The notes under the pieces were generated by a model. It worked only from the letters and a program-made list of their open reading frames with translations, had not been told where the DNA came from and made no database searches. The translations under genes were made by a program, and so were the position numbers. This document shows positions 52,661 through 62,731 of a stretch of 64,000 bases of DNA, one piece after another (position 1 is the stretch's first letter; each line of letters starts with the position of its first letter). The DNA is taken from the NCBI RefSeq assembly GCF_002356355.1, contig NZ_AP018052.1, positions 2,356,001 through 2,420,000 of the forward strand. The letters run 5' to 3'. The stretch comes from Thiohalobacter thiocyanaticus (lineage in GTDB: Bacteria; Pseudomonadota; Gammaproteobacteria; Thiohalobacterales; Thiohalobacteraceae).

Positions 52661-52694
52661 GTAGAGGGATATCACAGACTTCTTGAGCATTAAG

Positions 52695-52772
52695 GTGTCC
52701 GTGCTTTCCGTGCTTTCCGTGCTTTCCGTGCTTTCCGTGCTTTCCGTGCTTTCCGTGTTTTCCGTGGCCATT
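52695..52772. repeat. CACGGAA-family end expanded into 9-bp tandem repeats
   Basis: Six exact copies of GTGCTTTCC begin at 52701, 52710, 52719, 52728, 52737 and 52746, and one GTGTTTTCC follows at 52755. The ending CCGTGGCC matches the MITE-like ends elsewhere. The unit equals the internal period of those ends, so this copy looks like a solo end lengthened by slippage. Confidence 0.85.
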
Positions 52773-53995: not shown

Positions 53996-54116
53996 GGCTT
54001 ATCCTTTTCGGTGGCCGCGGAATGCGGGAAGGCGTCGTTTTGTTCCCGGCATCCTGTTAAGATTGCCGGAAATTAAACCAAAAGATTGAAAACATTGCGA
54101 TATGGGAGATGATTCA

Positions 54117-55118
54117 ATGCAGTCAGGTGCGATCCTGGTCACCGGCGGCGCCGGCTACATCGGCAGCCATGTGGTACGCCAGCTGGTCCGGCGCGGGGAG
54201 CGGGTGGTGGTGCTGGACAACCTCTCCACCGGCTTTGCCGAGGCGGTCCAGGGCGCCGAACTGGTGGTGGGGGACACCGGCGATGCCGCCCTGGTCGGCC
54301 GGCTGCTGACCGAGCATGGCATCGAATCCGTCCTGCACTTCGCCGCTCATACCGTGGTGCCGGAATCCGTTGAGAATCCGTTGAAATATTACGGCAACAA
54401 CACCTGCCACACCCGCAGCCTGCTCAGCTGCTGCCAGCATCACGGGGTCAAGCATTTCATCTTCTCCTCCACGGCGGCGGTCTACGGCATCCCCGATTCG
54501 CCCTATTGCACCGAGGATACCCCGACCGATCCGATCAACGCCTACGGCGCCTCCAAGTTGATGAGCGAGATGATGCTGCGCGACCTCAGTCGCGCCAGCG
54601 ATCTGCGGCATGTGGCGCTGCGCTACTTCAATGTCGCCGGCACCAGCCCCGACGGCGACATCGGCCAGTCAACGCCGCGCGCCACCCTGCTGATCAAGGT
54701 CGCCTGCGAGGTCGCCGCCGGCCGACGCGACCGCATGTACGTCTTCGGTACCGACTATCCCACCCCTGACGGCACCGGGGTGCGCGATTACATTCATGTG
54801 GAGGACCTTGCCGACGCCCACCTCAAGGCGCTGGACTACCTGCGCGACGGCGGTGACTCGGCCACGCTCAACTGCGGCTACGGCCACGGCTACAGCGTGC
54901 GCGAGGTGATCGAGGCGGTGGAACGCGTGGCCGGCCATCCCATTGCAGTGGAAGAGACCGACCGGCGCCCCGGTGACCCGCCGACCCTCATCGCCCGCTC
55001 CGAACGCGCTCGCGAAGTCCTTGGCTGGACCCCGCGCTACGACGACCTGGACTTCATCGTGCAGACCTCGCTGGAGTGGGAAAAGAAGCTCGCCGCCGGC
55101 ACGGCCTACGGGGCCTGA
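54117..55118 (+). CDS. galE: UDP-glucose 4-epimerase
   Basis: A 333-aa NAD-dependent epimerase that interconverts UDP-glucose and UDP-galactose for surface polysaccharide. The Rossmann motif is LVTGGAGYIGSHV. The catalytic Ser/Tyr/Lys appear in FSSTAAVYG and NAYGASKLMSE, followed by LRYFNVAGTSPDGDIG. ATG 54117 is chosen because GGGAG lies 8 bases before it; ATG 54102 in the same frame is an alternative. It opens the polysaccharide-related section. Confidence 0.95.
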   Translation: MQSGAILVTGGAGYIGSHVVRQLVRRGERVVVLDNLSTGFAEAVQGAELVVGDTGDAALVGRLLTEHGIESVLHFAAHTVVPESVENPLKYYGNNTCHTRSLLSCCQHHGVKHFIFSSTAAVYGIPDSPYCTEDTPTDPINAYGASKLMSEMMLRDLSRASDLRHVALRYFNVAGTSPDGDIGQSTPRATLLIKVACEVAAGRRDRMYVFGTDYPTPDGTGVRDYIHVEDLADAHLKALDYLRDGGDSATLNCGYGHGYSVREVIEAVERVAGHPIAVEETDRRPGDPPTLIARSERAREVLGWTPRYDDLDFIVQTSLEWEKKLAAGTAYGA

Positions 55119-55283: not shown

Positions 55284-56360
55284 TCACTCCTCACTCCTCA
55301 CCGCCTTGCGCACCAGATGCGGCAACAGCAGCTGCGGCGGCATGCGCAGGGCATGGCCGCGCAGATACAGCAACCAGCGCGCCAGCGGGCTGAAGGCATC
55401 ATCGCAGTCGGGGTGCGGCGGACGCAGGGCGCGTGCCATCAGGGCGTCCATCAGACCGCGCACACCCTGACCGGGCAGAGCCCGATCCGTCCACTGCAGC
55501 AGCGCGTCCGGCACCGGTGTGCCCAGGATCTCCCGGCAGTAGCGCAGGGCATAGGCCAGCGGACGTGACAGCTGCAGTTCCCCGGCGCGCACCGGCAGGC
55601 GCTCCCAGACATCCGGGCTCGTCCCGGCCGCTGCGCGGAGCAGTCCGTCCAGGTCGACCAGGTCGCGCAGCCCATGCTCGAACTCGCCATCATGGAACAG
55701 ATGGGTGGCGCTGTGCAGGATACGATCTTCGGCGGACAGGACATGCAGCTCGGGCGCGTCGATGCACTCGGCCGCCGCCAGCAGTTTTTCCGGATCCGGG
55801 CTGAGTCGTGCCGTCTCGGGCAGGATGTTGTGATGGACATCCAGCACCGTCCTGCGGCGGACATGGCGCAGCGGCGGCAACTCATGCATCCACTGGCGGT
55901 AGTAGCGCTGATCATAGGCGTCGTGATGCGTGGTCAACCACCCGGCCCAGTACAACGACTCCTCCACCGCATCCAGCTGCGCGCGCGGCACCAGGATATC
56001 CACGTCGCTGAACACCCGGCCGATCGCCACCGGCGACCCACTCATGAGATAGGCGGCGCCCTTCAGCAGCACCACCGGCACGCCCAGCGGCGCCAGGGCA
56101 CGGCGGATGCGGTTGACCTCCCAGCGCACCACCCGGGCATGGGCGGCAGCGAAATTGCGGGCCGAATCCAGATGCCGCTGCACCGGCGGCGGCAGCGCCG
56201 CCGGCTCACAGACGGCGGCGACCTGGTGCGCCAGCCGGGCCAGCAGGTTGGCATGCCGGGCCTGGCGGATGAGCCGTTCCCAGGCGGGCGCATCCAGCGT
56301 GGCAGCCACCTCCGGCGCCCGCAGCACCCGAACCAGCAGGGGCAGGCCGGTGTCAGGCAT
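55284..56360 (-). CDS. Nucleotidyltransferase family protein (NTP_transf_5 type)
   Basis: A 358-aa cytoplasmic protein. A nucleotidyltransferase-like core lies at about residues 85-210, with VVLLKGAAYLMSG and IGRVFSDVDILVPRAQLDA; the Asp pair in SDVDILV is the catalytic-metal site. The rest is helical. This family is found beside HprK-related kinase A and PqqD-like genes in exosortase or exopolysaccharide loci, as here. The nucleotide acceptor is unknown. It overlaps the kinase gene by 8 bases. Confidence 0.85.
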   Translation of the reverse strand: MPDTGLPLLVRVLRAPEVAATLDAPAWERLIRQARHANLLARLAHQVAAVCEPAALPPPVQRHLDSARNFAAAHARVVRWEVNRIRRALAPLGVPVVLLKGAAYLMSGSPVAIGRVFSDVDILVPRAQLDAVEESLYWAGWLTTHHDAYDQRYYRQWMHELPPLRHVRRRTVLDVHHNILPETARLSPDPEKLLAAAECIDAPELHVLSAEDRILHSATHLFHDGEFEHGLRDLVDLDGLLRAAAGTSPDVWERLPVRAGELQLSRPLAYALRYCREILGTPVPDALLQWTDRALPGQGVRGLMDALMARALRPPHPDCDDAFSPLARWLLYLRGHALRMPPQLLLPHLVRKAVRSEE

Positions 56361-57273
56361 GGGCGCCCCCGCTCAGGCGGTCGAACCAGGCGATGGCCTC
56401 GTCGAGATCGGCATAGCTCAGGTCGTGACAGCGACTTCCCTGCACCACGGCGGTGAGGGCCTGAAAGGCACGCTCGCCCAGCAGGCTGTAGTTGAAGGTG
56501 TTCTGCGCGATGCGCAGCAGGGTGCGTCCCGGCGTCTCGGACGCGGCCTGCGCCGGCACGGCATCGGGGCGGTAGCGGGGAAACACAATGGCCCCGGCCC
56601 GGACCGGTTCGTCCATGCCCTCGATGCTGGCACGCGGTACCCGCAGGTGGGCCACCGTGCCCTTGAGGGTGTCCAGCGCCGGCGGGCTGATGACCGCCTC
56701 GGGGGCAAAGCGGCGGATCACCTCGATGGAGGCGTTCTTCAGGCTCACCGGCCGTACCACCGGGATCAGTTCCAGGCGGTCCAGATCGATCACCGCCATC
56801 TCGTCTGACAGCAGCCGCCAGCCGCGCAGCACCAGCGCAGCGCAGAGCGTGCTCTTGCCCGCCCCCGGCTCGCCGGGCAGGATCACGCCCAGGCCGTTCC
56901 GCTCCACCACCGCCGAATGAATCAACAGATAGTGATGCATATGGCTGGTGATGCACCAGTTCAGCCCCCATTCCAGCAGCGGGTAGGCCTGGCTCAGGGG
57001 CAGCGGCTTGAACGGAATCCGGCCGTCCATGGCGAACTGCACCTGCGGCCGCCACCAGCGGCGCAGTGGGTTCGGGCTGAACAATCGCACCCGGAAGTCG
57101 GTGAATCCGTCGGGGTCGGCCAGGGGATAATCGGGATAGAGCAGCGCCAGGCCGGCCGCCACGGCGGGCAGGCGCGACTGGATGCGCGAAACGAAGGGGC
57201 CGGTTCTGACACAGATCCCCGGACCGGCCAGCTGCCCCGGCAGCCGCCCCGGGGCGATGGCGGCCAGGGTCAA
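56353..57273 (-). CDS. HprK-related kinase A
   Basis: A 306-aa P-loop protein related to HPr kinase/phosphorylase. Walker A is LPGEPGAGKSTLC at about residues 134-146, followed by LLSDEMAVIDLD, which resembles the HprK signature. It lacks the N-terminal domain of true HprK. The substrate of such kinases in these loci is unproven. It overlaps the PqqD-like gene upstream by 4 bases and the nucleotidyltransferase downstream by 8, so all three form one translational unit. Confidence 0.87.
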   Translation of the reverse strand: MTLAAIAPGRLPGQLAGPGICVRTGPFVSRIQSRLPAVAAGLALLYPDYPLADPDGFTDFRVRLFSPNPLRRWWRPQVQFAMDGRIPFKPLPLSQAYPLLEWGLNWCITSHMHHYLLIHSAVVERNGLGVILPGEPGAGKSTLCAALVLRGWRLLSDEMAVIDLDRLELIPVVRPVSLKNASIEVIRRFAPEAVISPPALDTLKGTVAHLRVPRASIEGMDEPVRAGAIVFPRYRPDAVPAQAASETPGRTLLRIAQNTFNYSLLGERAFQALTAVVQGSRCHDLSYADLDEAIAWFDRLSGGAHA

Positions 57274-57557
57274 GGCTCGACCTGCTCGATAATGTTCAAT
57301 CGCTTGAGTTCTCCCAGGATGGTCTCAACCAGCGCCTGCGGCGGCCGCGCCGGTTCCGGGGATACTAACTCACTCAGGAGGGAAACCAAATCCGCGTCGC
57401 TGCGGGGCTGCTGCTCCAGGGCCCGGAGCAGTTCGGCGGCCAGGGGATCGAGCAGATGGGTGTCACCGCTGCCGCGGTGATAGATCGCGACCTCTCCGTC
57501 CCAGTCCACCCGGGCCAGCCCGGACGGACCGCAGACCTGCCAACGGCGGTCGGACAT
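57270..57557 (-). CDS. PqqD-family peptide chaperone-like protein (HPr-rel-A system)
   Basis: A 95-aa protein of the PqqD-like family: the HLLDPLAAELLRALEQQPRSD segment has the usual winged-helix layout, followed by a helical end (ILGELKRLNIIE). PqqD-like domains bind leader peptides and present them to modifying enzymes. It begins one base inside the end of the upstream secreted-protein gene and overlaps the kinase gene, so the four products are made together. The most likely client is the upstream protein; this is inferred. Confidence 0.85.
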   Translation of the reverse strand: MSDRRWQVCGPSGLARVDWDGEVAIYHRGSGDTHLLDPLAAELLRALEQQPRSDADLVSLLSELVSPEPARPPQALVETILGELKRLNIIEQVEP

Positions 57558-58225
57558 CACTGATAGGCGCAGAGGGTACTCTGGATAAAGGCGACGACCT
57601 GTTCGACGGTGAGGATCTTGCCATTGTTGCCCATGTAGTAGCCGGCGGCCGCACCGCCGTTGGCATCGACGTTGGCGTAGATGGCCTGGACATCGGCCGG
57701 ACTCATGCCGTAGCCCGGGATGGCATAGGAATTGAGCAGGGCGGCGACGATATGGGCGCCGAACTGGTGCGGGTCCTGGTTGCCCTGCAGCCACAGCACC
57801 TGCATCAGGGTCTTGCCGGCGTAGTGCGGGTCGCTGCCGCTGAAGGTGCTGGGGCCGAAGAAGGGAGTGCCGTCGCTGTTGTAGCTGTTGCACTGACCCT
57901 TCCCCTTACCCTTACTGTTGGCACAGGTGCCCGGATCGAAGGGGGTGTGGTTCCAGTTGCCGTCGCCTCTGTCGGGCGTCTTCCAGGCCCCGGGGGTGAA
58001 ACCGCAGGCGCAGTCGTCGTGGCCGTGATCGGACACGTTGCCGGACATGAAGCCGGAGATGGTGCACTCCGCGCCCAGCACCGGCCGGCTGCTCAGGCTC
58101 AGCAGCACCGGGGTCAGGGCCGCACCCTTGAGGATGCGGCGCCGGGTCCCGCTGCCGACGGGCGTTGCAGATTCTGATTCAACTATCTGATTTTCGGTTT
58201 TTTCTGTGTCTTTTTCAGTGGCCAT
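57557..58225 (-). CDS. Exported Cys-rich protein heading the PqqD-HprK operon
   Basis: A 222-aa protein. Residues 1 to about 25 are a charged leader. A twin-Arg-like signal follows (RRRILKGAALTPVLLSLSS) and ends near LGAEC. The mature part has the motif CACGFTPGAWKTPDRG, a relative of the CxxG-TPGxWK motif seen in many secreted bacterial proteins, then CANSKGKGKGQC and a Gly/Asn-rich globular half. Several Cys could form disulfides. It is the first gene of the operon with PqqD-like, kinase and nucleotidyltransferase genes. It could be the substrate that they modify; no such product is known to me. ATG 58225 or 58237 may be the start. Confidence 0.7.
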   Translation of the reverse strand: MATEKDTEKTENQIVESESATPVGSGTRRRILKGAALTPVLLSLSSRPVLGAECTISGFMSGNVSDHGHDDCACGFTPGAWKTPDRGDGNWNHTPFDPGTCANSKGKGKGQCNSYNSDGTPFFGPSTFSGSDPHYAGKTLMQVLWLQGNQDPHQFGAHIVAALLNSYAIPGYGMSPADVQAIYANVDANGGAAAGYYMGNNGKILTVEQVVAFIQSTLCAYQ

Positions 58226-58385
58226 TTTAAGCTGCATCCTGGACAGTGCCCGGACTGGAACGGGCAGATTCATACCTTAAGCTAAGCACATGCCATGCCA
58301 TACAGAATTTATCATTGCCAAATCAAACAGCTGTGGTCCGACACGAAGCCCCGTGTCCGCAGGACAGCGGCAGTCATCCCGGATA

Positions 58386-58479: not shown

Positions 58480-59259
58480 TCAGTTCTGTGCCTGCCGGAT
58501 GCGCTGCAGCAAGGCCGCGGCATGCGTGACCGGAATGGCGTAGCTGATGCCACTGGGATCGCTCAGGGCCGATTCCCGGGTCTCCTTGACGAATACCTTG
58601 TTAATAATTCCGACAACCCTGCCCGACTCCGGCTGATACAGCGGACTGCCGCTGTTGCCCGGGTAGGCGGTGCCATCGAGCTGATAGACATCATAGGGAG
58701 CCCGCAGACGCCGCACCGTGGCCGGATCGAGCTGGCTGGAGCGGTCGGCCGGGATCACGATGGGCGTGATGGCGGCAATCATGGCCCGATGGGTGGCGGG
58801 ATACAGCCCCAGCACGGCGCCGATGGGGAACCCGGTGAACAGGTAGATGCCGCCCTCGCGCACCCGCGCCTGCGGGGCCAGTTCCAGCACCGGGACCGGG
58901 GCGCCCTCGATCCGCAGCACGGCCAGGTCATGCTTCGGATCGGAGGCATGCAGCCTGGCCCGGCGCAGTTCCGGACGACGCCCGCTGCCGACCATCACGG
59001 TAAGATACTCATGGTGCACGGCATCGAGTTCGTCCGGGATCACGTGCAGGTTGGTCAGGACGTGACGCCCGTCCAGCACGCCGAAGCCGGTCCCCAGCAG
59101 CCGGACCGGCGGCCGCCGGGTCTTCTGGAAGGTGCCGATCCCGACAATGGCCGGCTTGGTTCGATCGATGATGTCGGCATAGTCCGCGGCGGCGAGCGCT
59201 GGCGGAGCGCTGCATAACAGGGTCAGCACGGCCAGAAGCTTCAGCCAGGTAAACCGCAT
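58480..59259 (-). CDS. Secreted trypsin-like serine protease
   Basis: A 259-aa protein with a signal peptide (residues 1-23, ending ALA) and a chymotrypsin fold. The triad is visible: His in VLTNLHVIPDE, Asp in DPKHDLAVLRI and Ser in YPGNSGSPLY. No PDZ domain follows, so it is a short trypsin/S1C type rather than DegP. It is expected to act in the periplasm. It is divergent from the VanZ-heparinase gene and next to the PqqD-type operon. Confidence 0.9.
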   Translation of the reverse strand: MRFTWLKLLAVLTLLCSAPPALAAADYADIIDRTKPAIVGIGTFQKTRRPPVRLLGTGFGVLDGRHVLTNLHVIPDELDAVHHEYLTVMVGSGRRPELRRARLHASDPKHDLAVLRIEGAPVPVLELAPQARVREGGIYLFTGFPIGAVLGLYPATHRAMIAAITPIVIPADRSSQLDPATVRRLRAPYDVYQLDGTAYPGNSGSPLYQPESGRVVGIINKVFVKETRESALSDPSGISYAIPVTHAAALLQRIRQAQN

Positions 59260-59350: not shown

Positions 59351-62300
59351 ATGCGTTCACGCAGCGACATACGCCTGCTTCTTGTCCTGGCACTCAGCTA
59401 TACCCTGCTGATCGCTTACGGCAGCCTGTATCCGCTCAGCGGCTGGCGGCTGCCGGCCGCCGGCTGGCTGCCCGACAGTCTGCTGCCGGGATTCAACGGC
59501 GCCGACGCGCTGCTGAACCTGCTGGTCTACATGCCGTTCGGCTTTCTCTGGGCCGGCCACCGGCGTCGCCGCGGCCGCACGGGCCTGGCCCCCGTGCTGC
59601 TGCTGGCGGCCGGCACCAGTCTCGGCCTGGAAGCCCTGCAGCACTTTCTGCCCGGGCGCACCACTTCGGGCCTGGACAGCCTGCTCAATATCACCGGCGC
59701 GGGGCTGGGCGCACTGCTGGCCACCGGCACCCGGACCGGCCTGCCGGGCTGGCTGCAACGCCAGCGGTTGCGCTGGCTGCGGGATGACGCCCCCGCCGCG
59801 GCGGCCGGGCTGACGGTGCTGCTGTGGCTGTTCATCGAACTCAGCCCCCTGCTGCCCGATCTCAGCCCGGGCGGCATCCGCCACAGCCTGCTGCCGCTGT
59901 ACAACGGGCTGCGCAACCCGGCACTGCTGGACCTGCCGGCCGCCCTGGCACGGCTGGGCCTGGTGCTGGCCTTCGCCCTGGCCCTGCTGCAGCTGCTGAA
60001 ACCGCAACAGCCGCGTCTGCGGCTGCTGGCGCTGCTGCTGCCGGCACTGCTGGCCGCCCGGGTACTGATCAGTGGCAGTCAGCTGTCACTCGATCTGGTG
60101 CTGGGCACCCTGCTCGGCTTCGGTCTGGTGCTGCTGCTGCGGCGGCGTGAAACCCTGTGGCCCTGGGTCGGCGCGGCCGCGGCGCTGTGCGGCTACATCC
60201 TCGCCCAGAGCCAGGTCGATCCCGGCGCCGCCCGGCTGCACCCGTTCAACTGGCGGCCCTTCTCCCCGCAGATCAGCCACGGCTTCGGGCTGACCGATGT
60301 CGCGGCCCAACTCTGGCCGTTTCTGGCCCTGGGCCTGTTCCTGCGGCAGACGCCGCTGGCCCGTGCCGGCGGTCTGCTGCTGTGGTCCGGGGTGCTGGCC
60401 ATCGCGGCCCTCTCCTTCGGACTGGAGTGGCAGCAGCGCGGCCTGCCCGGGCGCCAGGGCGATATCACCGACGTGATCCTGGCCCTGCTCGGCTGGCTGC
60501 TGGCCTGGCTGCTGAGCGCCCCGCAGCCGCGCCCACGCCCGCTCCGGCCGCTGGCCGCCAGTCAGGCCCTGTACGCCTTCGGCATCCTGCTCGCTGCCAG
60601 CCTGGCCGCCACCCTGCTGATCCGCCCCCAGGCCGGCAACGCCGGGCAGGAACTGCAGGTGCGCGAGATCCCGGCGCCGGAGAGCCTGCCGGCGGCCGAA
60701 CTGCCCGGCTTCCGCATGGCGCATCCGCGCCTGCCCTACCCGACACCCGACCAGCTGAAGATCATCCGCGCGGAAAACCCCCACTACCTGGAGCATCTGC
60801 AGCGCCGGGCCAGCGACGCCAACCGGCGCCATCACCGCGTCTTCGACGCCGTGATGGCCGAGGTGCTGGTCCCGGGCAGCCAGGATCTCGACCAGCTGCA
60901 CGCCGAACTGCTCGAACTGGAACTGCGCTGGCGCGGCAATCAGCAGACCAAGCCGCTGGCCATGGCCTACGACTGGCTGTATGACAAATGGAGCGAGGCG
61001 CAGCGCGCCAGTCTGCTGGAGAAGACCCTGGATGCGTGCGAGTACCAGATCCGCTTCATTCGCCGCAACCAACTCTCGCCCTATAACGTGTATCTGTACA
61101 ACAGCCCGTTCCAGGCCCTGATGGCCTGCGCCATCGCCGTACATGGCGACCACCCGCGCGCCGGGGCGGTGATGAATTTTACGCACCATTACTGGAAGGA
61201 CAGCGTGCTGCCGGTCTGGCGGCAGGTGATGGGCGCGAACGGCGGCTGGCACGAGGGTGCCGAGTATGTCGCCATCGGCATCGGCGACGCCGTGTTCCAG
61301 CTGCCCAATATGTGGCGCGCCGCCACCGGCGAGGACCTGTTCGCCAGCGAGTCCGGACTGCGCGGCTTCGCCGACTTTCTGGTCCACCGCAAGCGGCCCG
61401 ACGGCGAGGACATCCATCTCGGCGATGGCGGACTGTACGAGAACAGCGTGCCGGACGCCGCCGCCCTGGGCGTGGAACTGAACCATCCGGCGGTCTACAG
61501 CCTGGACGGCTGCCCGAACCCGAAACGCCCCCAGCCCCTGAGCTGGCCCTGGGGACCGCTGCCCGATACCGGCCTGTGCCGGCCCGGGGCCAGGCAGCAA
61601 CTGCCTTTGAGCCATTACGCCGACGGCGTCGGCCTGCTGCTCGCGCGCAGCGACTGGTCGCCCGAGGCCACCTTCGTCAGCTTCAAGGCCGGCGACAACT
61701 ACTGGTCGCACATGCACCTCGACCAGGGCGCCTTCACCATTTACAAGGGCGGCGCCCTGGCCATCGACAGCGGCATCTATCCGCAGCAGTACGGCTCCGA
61801 TCATCACCTGAACTATGCCTACCAGAGCATCGCCCACAATGTGATCACGGTGACGGATCCGGCCGATACCGTGCCCCGGCACCAGGGCGACAGGATCCGC
61901 CACATCCACAACGACGGCGGCCAGCGTCGCATCGGCTCCGGCTGGGGCCTGGCCGCTCCGCTCGACCTGGAACACTGGCGGGAACAGTACGACCTCTACC
62001 ACACCGCCGAGACCCTGGCCGTGTACCGGGATGCCGGCGCAGCGGTCAAACTGGCCGACCTCACCCCGGCCTACACCAACCGCCTGTCGGGCAAGGGCAC
62101 CTTCGCCCACCGCACCCGGCGGGTGGAATCGCTGCGCCGGGCCTTCGTCTACGACCGGGTGCAGGATGCCGTCATCGTGTTCGACCGGGTCGAGGCCACC
62201 CGCGCCGACTTCACCAAGCGCTGGCTGCTGCACAGCCAGACCGAGCCGCGGGTCGAGGGCAGCGAGTTCCTGATCGAACTGCCACCCGGGCAGGATCGTC

Positions 62301-62731
62301 CCGGCCACGCCGGCGGCCGCCTGGAAGGTCATATCCTGCTGCCCGAACAGCCGCGCATCCAGCGCATCGGCGGTGAGGGTCAAGAGTTCCGGTTGGGCGA
62401 CCGAAACTATGACGACGACGGCGCCGTCTATACGCGCATCGCCAAACGCGACGAGCGCGGCCGCACCCTGGAGCCGGGCGCCTGGCGCCTGGAGGTCAGC
62501 CCGTCCGCACCGGCCCGGCTGGACCACTATCTGGTGGTGATGCTGCCCTCGCTGCTGGATGCAGGGCGGGCGACCGAGGTCCGCCGCCTGCCCGATCGCG
62601 ACAACGCCGTCGGCTGCGAGATCCGCAGCGGCGAACGCCGCAGCCAGTGGTGGTTCGCGCGCGACGGCTCGCAGGTGGAGCTTGTACGCTTTGACAAGGA
62701 AGGCGAGATTGAACGTCGCATCATCCGTTAA
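59351..62731 (+). CDS. VanZ-like membrane domain fused to heparinase II/III-like domain
   Basis: A 1126-aa protein. Residues 1 to about 435 hold about ten membrane helices in two VanZ-like halves (LLNLLVYMPFGFLWAG, GLEALQHFLPGRTTSG; and the second LGLEWQQRGLPGRQGD-like segment). Residues about 460-1126 are a polysaccharide-lyase-type part: an alpha-barrel containing AMAYDWLYDKWSE, then the beta part with SHMHLDQGAFTIYKGG. The lyase part probably works in the periplasm on an acidic polysaccharide. The fusion is unusual; VanZ and heparinase are usually separate genes. The flippase follows 38 bases later, pointing to export and trimming of an exopolysaccharide. Confidence 0.82.
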   Translation: MRSRSDIRLLLVLALSYTLLIAYGSLYPLSGWRLPAAGWLPDSLLPGFNGADALLNLLVYMPFGFLWAGHRRRRGRTGLAPVLLLAAGTSLGLEALQHFLPGRTTSGLDSLLNITGAGLGALLATGTRTGLPGWLQRQRLRWLRDDAPAAAAGLTVLLWLFIELSPLLPDLSPGGIRHSLLPLYNGLRNPALLDLPAALARLGLVLAFALALLQLLKPQQPRLRLLALLLPALLAARVLISGSQLSLDLVLGTLLGFGLVLLLRRRETLWPWVGAAAALCGYILAQSQVDPGAARLHPFNWRPFSPQISHGFGLTDVAAQLWPFLALGLFLRQTPLARAGGLLLWSGVLAIAALSFGLEWQQRGLPGRQGDITDVILALLGWLLAWLLSAPQPRPRPLRPLAASQALYAFGILLAASLAATLLIRPQAGNAGQELQVREIPAPESLPAAELPGFRMAHPRLPYPTPDQLKIIRAENPHYLEHLQRRASDANRRHHRVFDAVMAEVLVPGSQDLDQLHAELLELELRWRGNQQTKPLAMAYDWLYDKWSEAQRASLLEKTLDACEYQIRFIRRNQLSPYNVYLYNSPFQALMACAIAVHGDHPRAGAVMNFTHHYWKDSVLPVWRQVMGANGGWHEGAEYVAIGIGDAVFQLPNMWRAATGEDLFASESGLRGFADFLVHRKRPDGEDIHLGDGGLYENSVPDAAALGVELNHPAVYSLDGCPNPKRPQPLSWPWGPLPDTGLCRPGARQQLPLSHYADGVGLLLARSDWSPEATFVSFKAGDNYWSHMHLDQGAFTIYKGGALAIDSGIYPQQYGSDHHLNYAYQSIAHNVITVTDPADTVPRHQGDRIRHIHNDGGQRRIGSGWGLAAPLDLEHWREQYDLYHTAETLAVYRDAGAAVKLADLTPAYTNRLSGKGTFAHRTRRVESLRRAFVYDRVQDAVIVFDRVEATRADFTKRWLLHSQTEPRVEGSEFLIELPPGQDRPGHAGGRLEGHILLPEQPRIQRIGGEGQEFRLGDRNYDDDGAVYTRIAKRDERGRTLEPGAWRLEVSPSAPARLDHYLVVMLPSLLDAGRATEVRRLPDRDNAVGCEIRSGERRSQWWFARDGSQVELVRFDKEGEIERRIIR

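Follow-up and report, generated by a model that had tools for sequence, protein, structure and literature searches.

A 64,000-nucleotide stretch of the Thiohalobacter thiocyanaticus genome (contig NZ_AP018052.1, positions 2,356,001 to 2,420,000; 'the window' below means this whole stretch) contains, on its minus strand, four overlapping genes that encode an exported protein, a PqqD-like protein, an HprK-like kinase and a nucleotidyltransferase. This operon had been described in an earlier note made from the sequence alone, and was confirmed by inspection of the sequence and its open reading frames (ORFs), and by family models. The earlier note also proposed that the secreted protein is a client of the enzymes, and made this depend on a conserved secreted neighbour in other copies of the gene set. 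Such a neighbour was found: a protein with a twin-arginine leader lies beside the set in 117 of 121 kinase loci, and in 34 of 40 loci of a second sample. This conservation in sequence strongly supports the exported protein as the substrate of the set. We further regard as rather probable a complete model in which the twin-arginine signal peptide would act as a leader bound by the PqqD-like protein, the kinase would phosphorylate a serine, the nucleotidyltransferase would elaborate the phosphoserine, and the product would leave by the twin-arginine translocation (Tat) pathway. A better description of what was found is a modification system of the HPr-rel-A kind (a system defined in NCBIfam by TIGR04352 and TIGR04353) that depends on a Tat leader and extends to short peptides.

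Seven genes between 54102 and 62731 were scanned with NCBIfam and Pfam models at the models' own cut-offs. The features of the operon are as follows (coordinates within the window).

57557..58225 (-): exported protein, 222 amino acids (aa), proposed substrate, no known family; relatives in 112/121 kinase loci
57270..57557 (-): PqqD-like protein PqqD_rel_X (TIGR04353; 62.5 bits, cut-off 35), proposed leader-binding RRE, that is, recognition element of ribosomally synthesised and post-translationally modified peptides (RiPPs)
56353..57273 (-): HprK-related kinase A, HprK_rel_A (TIGR04352; 386 bits, cut-off 200), with a TTG start at 57273
55284..56360 (-): nucleotidyltransferase NTP_transf_5 (PF14907; 192.7 bits, cut-off 31.2)
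58070..58144 (-): twin-arginine leader R28-A52 of the exported protein, proposed Tat signal and PqqD-binding leader; cleavage site placed by eye
58031..58066 (-): CxxSGxxSGNxS segment, with candidate modified serines S57 (58055-58057) and S61 (58043-58045)
57560..58018 (-): folded mature part with the CxCGFTPGAWK motif, a GYWK-type domain

The reading frame of the exported protein opens at 58273, and the gene was taken as 58225-57557; it overlaps the PqqD-like gene in the sequence TGATG. No family in NCBIfam, Pfam or PHROGs matches the protein.

Conservation of a leader protein beside the kinase

Of 369 genomes of the class, 41 score above the cut-off of the kinase model TIGR04352. One of these is the window's own, and we fetched the loci of the 40 others. 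Together with the window and the best 80 of 589 kinase-alignment matches in a further genome collection, these make up the 121 loci compared; taking the best 80 biases the set towards close relatives, and some genomes occur twice (for example, L093/L035 and L134/L032). A profile of the exported protein matches in 112 of the 121 loci, and five more (L042, L057, L066, L068 and L069) carry a leader protein of another kind. In five of the 117 positives the leader protein was classed by eye. Two of the remaining four loci run into contig ends (L062, L140), and two have no such protein (L079, L128). After clustering of the kinases, a leader-protein neighbour is found for 99 of 102 clusters at 90% identity, and for 72 of 73 at 70% identity. 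PqqD was detected in 118 loci and the nucleotidyltransferase in 120. Four loci (L081, L095, L135 and L148) have two copies of the exported protein downstream of the nucleotidyltransferase, so the order of the genes is not fixed, but their membership is.

The exported-protein model matches 43 of the 369 genomes. Of these, 34 are also among the 41 that have the kinase over its cut-off, an overlap far above chance (Fisher p 8e-33). One of the 34 (G015) owes its match to the mature domain, on another contig. Among the nine model-positive genomes outside the kinase set, four have the mature domain only and five have short peptides.

The second sample reached further. The kinase was over cut-off in 61 of 398 phylum genomes, and 40 of the 57 new loci, picked for their spread over genera, were fetched; nine are from the window's own class, and the others are from outside it. 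The leader protein was found in 34, namely in 24 by leader or substrate profiles built earlier (E up to 0.01) and in 10 by eye or by tblastn from members of the sample. The six loci without one are L270, L271, L273, L278, L291 and L295, five of which also have no detected PqqD; L079 likewise has neither. In seven loci (L071, L148 and L286-L290), PqqD went undetected despite the presence of a leader protein.

Leaders, cargoes and candidate serines

The exported protein of the window carries an export signal of the form TRRRILKG...SSRPVLGA and a CACGFTPGAWK motif. In the window's own family, both arginines (R28 and R29) are kept in 68 of 68 sequences, and the genome encodes TatC; the protein is a candidate Tat substrate, although it gives no match to the NCBIfam Tat-signal model. 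The two serines just past the leader, S57 and S61, are likewise invariant in 68 of 68 sequences, and C54 is kept in 67. Mean pairwise identity is 0.45 in the leader, 0.56 in the CxxSGxxSGNxS segment and 0.30 over residues 81-222. An AlphaFold model places most blocks of residues 91-220 at a predicted local distance difference test (pLDDT) score of 89-96, and leaves the leader and the serine-rich stretch disordered, which fits an accessible modification site. Foldseek gave no match in the PDB with E below 1 for this protein, a sequence search against the PDB gave none, and structural alignment found no chain with Z of at least 2 among 220 aligned, which does not in itself prove a new fold.

We sorted the leader proteins into types A, B and C, which are labels of this analysis. 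In type A, to which the window protein belongs, a leader like SRRKLTKAGLxAPVIMTLASRPVLGA is followed by CxxSGxxSGNxS and the GYWK domain. Type B proteins have the leader RRRKLLKGLAAGVPAIVTLQSGAALAxSS, a different middle part and, in most cases, a C-terminus resembling SCWxSF. Type C proteins have the leader RRALMLGAVGASAIVSIRPALAQTAGS and end in FTCFASLQ. Three unrelated mature parts thus carry similar leaders, and the constant features, as judged by these comparisons, appear to be the twin-arginine leader and a nearby serine, with interchangeable mature parts. None of the exported proteins tested could be placed in a family of NCBIfam or Pfam. In L262-L281, proteins of types B and C share a C-terminal Cys-aromatic-x-Ser-(Phe/Leu) ending. 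In G296 a second leader protein lies on another contig (L207), and its leader resembles that of the kinase-linked L050, including the unusual MSIPGRQVFA.

The TPGxWK motif, which the earlier note pointed out in the secreted protein, is not the key to the system. It belongs to one of several mature parts, and other leader proteins lack it. We therefore rejected it as a modification tag; its domain also ends exported proteins that have neither leader nor kinase (L202-L206). In these exported-looking proteins the GYWK domain is the C-terminal end, and the fetched stretches hold no kinase match; no Pfam family was found for the domain. It thus looks like a surface domain that has been joined to this leader.

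Weak matches of the window's model led to peptides of 57-149 aa (L182-L189, L208, L210 and L211). Many of them adjoin a more distant HprK-like kinase and also, where the contig allows, PqqD and NTP_transf_5; in L187, three such peptides lie between PqqD and the kinase. Their leader reads SRRxFLKKxAYVAPAILTLxAxPxxA, with GS soon after. The residues S, R, R, F, P, A, G and S do not vary among the 15 model rows of these leaders, and 22 of the 23 short peptides listed contain YxxP. Short Tat-leader peptides were also seen in L244-L250, and some stand alone on other contigs of genomes that carry the set. A peptide of another kind, with a Tat leader and a WxxP motif (L199:499-819), lies upstream of a divergent kinase and an NTP_transf_5 gene.

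A leader model of 41 positions, built from those 15 short-peptide leaders only, was run on the 369 genomes and gave 34 matches in 22 of them, its own 15 rows included. Seven of the matches are leader proteins of types A and B that are linked to a kinase. Nine further matches are short peptides outside the model, and two of these have parts of the set next to them: a fused PqqD-kinase in L195, and PqqD with the nucleotidyltransferase at a contig end in L246. For the other seven, the fetched stretch holds no set gene. The last three matches are those for which no link was found. The likeness between leaders therefore goes beyond what Tat signals in general have in common. In L195, L197 and L200, the PqqD and kinase matches fall within one open frame.

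Proposed mechanism and its alternatives

The catalytic motifs of both enzymes are intact in the alignments: all 121 kinases have the Walker A and DE motifs, and K100, G101, R115, D119, D121 and D174 of the nucleotidyltransferase are kept in 120 of 120. The structural model of the kinase (mean pLDDT 93.5) aligned best to phosphoenolpyruvate (PEP) carboxykinases at Z 16.3 (root-mean-square deviation (rmsd) 5.2, 284 residues) and to HPr kinases at Z 12.6 (rmsd 2.7, 130 residues), as expected for the HPr kinase/PEP carboxykinase superfamily; Foldseek was also run. The Pfam PqqD model had no match in the genome at E 0.001, and gave the PqqD-like protein of the window 21.2 bits, just below its cut-off.

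We propose that the exported protein is a dedicated substrate of this set. Its twin-arginine signal peptide would double as a leader, held by the PqqD-like protein as RRE and presented to the HprK-like kinase. The kinase would phosphorylate a serine close behind the signal peptide (S57, S61 or both), once or more than once. Next, the nucleotidyltransferase would transfer a nucleotidyl or sugar group to the phosphoserine; this sugar or nucleotide step is the least certain part. The Tat pathway carries folded, already modified proteins, and would export the product. An ordinary signal peptidase would remove the leader, so that no dedicated leader peptidase would be needed. Leader binding, the choice of residue, the chemistry, the use of Tat and a function in exopolysaccharide or at the surface of the cell are what we infer.

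Several points weigh against this model, which draws on computation only. Contig ends aside, eight loci have no leader protein; six of the eight also have no detectable PqqD, but L128 and L295 have PqqD and no leader protein was found there. The NCBIfam Tat-signal model does not match the window protein. Over all types, a serine lies within eight residues of the predicted cleavage site in 139 of 161 proteins, compared to 40-56% of control stretches (a weak control). This excess is modest, so the argument for a serine is carried by type A (68/68) and by the short peptides (15/15 model rows). The CxxS-like C-terminal end of types B and C could be the modified site instead. The remaining points come from the linear polyphosphorylated peptides (LPPs) of Bacillota. 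RREs are described as recognising [Y/W]xxP in LPP and lasso leaders (PMC13381572), and the window leader lacks this motif, reading AALTPVLL. Furthermore, deletion of lppN is described in the same source as causing no detectable change in the published host, which makes the transferase step uncertain.

Beyond the operon, the scanned part of the window contains three further features.

54102-55118: GalE, downstream of the operon
58480..59259 (-): Trypsin_2 serine protease (Pfam match), upstream of the operon, possible accessory
59351-62731: VanZ-like/heparinase-like fusion of 1126 aa, beyond the Trypsin_2 gene

The Trypsin_2 protease bears a signal peptide and could process the exported protein; its relatives are near the kinase in 41 of 121 loci, and so are frequent, not constant. 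Relatives of the fusion are near the kinase in 14 of 121 loci, and GalE-like genes in 25. At 52683-52771, after hydrogenase-maturation-like genes (judged by eye), is a simple repeat with STES/VLSVLS-like coding on both strands. Two exosortases are encoded in the genome, and about 31 kb separate one of them from the operon. The placement of the operon within a polysaccharide locus, as the earlier note had it, is thus only partly borne out: GalE next door and the exosortase at that distance agree with it.

These neighbours are also what could be explained by a set that modifies a sugar, lipid or polysaccharide carrier, with the exported protein acting later in the pathway (for example, on exopolysaccharide) and itself unmodified. 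We consider this unlikely, since the mature part is freely exchanged while N-termini of the leader type stay, and the short peptides of 57-149 aa take the same place. To our knowledge, every PqqD-like protein that has been characterised binds peptides, which also counts against a carrier as target.

Still less probable, in our view, is that PqqD merely chaperones a Tat substrate whose leader is kept for Tat export alone, while the kinase and transferase act elsewhere. The general Tat-signal form of the leader, and the small peptide-binding fold of PqqD_rel_X, would suit such a role. However, generic Tat signals are unmatched by the leader model (for three of its 34 matches in the 369 genomes, no link was found), the kinase and PqqD are fused in three loci, and the adjacent serines are invariant in the window's family. 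Finally, control of sugar metabolism by this kinase as an HPr kinase is highly improbable, and HPr was rejected as its target: the superfamily is the same and the genome encodes HPr, but elsewhere in the genome, about 1.3 kb from the HPr gene, there is a full HPr kinase (304.7 bits, above the cut-off), and the window kinase reaches 34.3 bits against the cut-off of 240 of the HPr(Ser) kinase model TIGR00679.

Comparison with known systems

Our literature search, in which most subscription papers and all preprints were outside the scope, returned no paper that joins HprK with PqqD and exosortase, HPr kinase with PEP-CTERM, or the Tat signal peptide with RiPP, leader peptide and kinase; no paper in it contains 'HprK-related kinase', 'PqqD family peptide chaperone' or 'HPr-rel-A', and no target of the HPr-rel-A kinase was found. 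On RRE, twin-arginine and HprK, the sole relevant paper within that scope describes the LPPs (Popov et al. 2026, PMC13381572). In that system, which is often found in capsule loci, a leader peptide is the target of an RRE, an HprK-like kinase and a nucleoside triphosphate (NTP) transferase, and the kinase is described as placing several phosphates on Ser3 of the core, near the leader. The Discussion of that paper calls LPPs and paeninodins restricted to Bacillota, and a word search of its main text gave no Proteobacteria, Pseudomonadota or Tat.

The window set resembles the described LPP system in having an RRE, an HprK-like kinase and an NTP transferase together, and the short Tat peptides share [Y/W]xxP with it. 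There are also differences. LPP substrates, as that source presents them, are peptides, whereas the proposed substrate in the window is 222 aa long and combines a folded part with a Tat-like leader. The LPP system has a dedicated SpI-like leader peptidase and an MsbA-like transporter, neither of which is among the seven genes scanned.

According to a review (PMC9266682), PsmN, annotated as a nucleotidyltransferase, is needed for a hexose on the phosphoserine made by PsmK, with a host enzyme possibly involved. Paeninodin and pseudomycoidin, as described there, thus share with the window set an HprK-like kinase that phosphorylates serine, and a nucleotidyltransferase homologue. However, they need a macrolactam cyclase and a leader peptidase, and it is the C-terminal serine of a small peptide that is phosphorylated. 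The macrolactam synthetase and B2 peptidase of lasso peptides are not among the seven genes, and the window operon holds no peptidase or cyclase gene. By homology, we propose that the chemistry would be the same as that of LPPs and pseudomycoidin, with the Tat signal as leader.

If the proposed model is true, RiPP leader recognition would be joined with Tat export, and an RRE and a kinase would act on whole exported proteins. A kinase present in 41 of 369 class genomes and 61 of 398 genomes of the phylum sample gains an adjacent substrate gene and candidate residues. The leader also offers a search key for short Tat-leader peptides, which are likely to escape gene finders and RiPP finders. The conserved pairing suggests widespread chemical decoration of proteins ahead of export. 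A bolder reading, offered tentatively because we think it has the lesser chance of being right, is that many proteins and peptides of Pseudomonadota may form a large class, modified by a kinase and exported by Tat, whose members use a single N-terminal segment as Tat signal and RRE leader at once. The serine beside the cleavage site would be (poly)phosphorylated and then given a phosphodiester-linked sugar or nucleotide, so that a whole folded protein, and not just a small peptide, would be joined to the cell surface or its polysaccharide. Such a class would take in the short peptides and at least three protein families, with the whole HPr-rel-A system included.

A Tat-leader modification system was not found described in the literature searched. 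NCBIfam names the parts of the HPr-rel-A system, and the window kinase and the adjoining PqqD are both over the cut-offs of its models. The new element here is the substrate.

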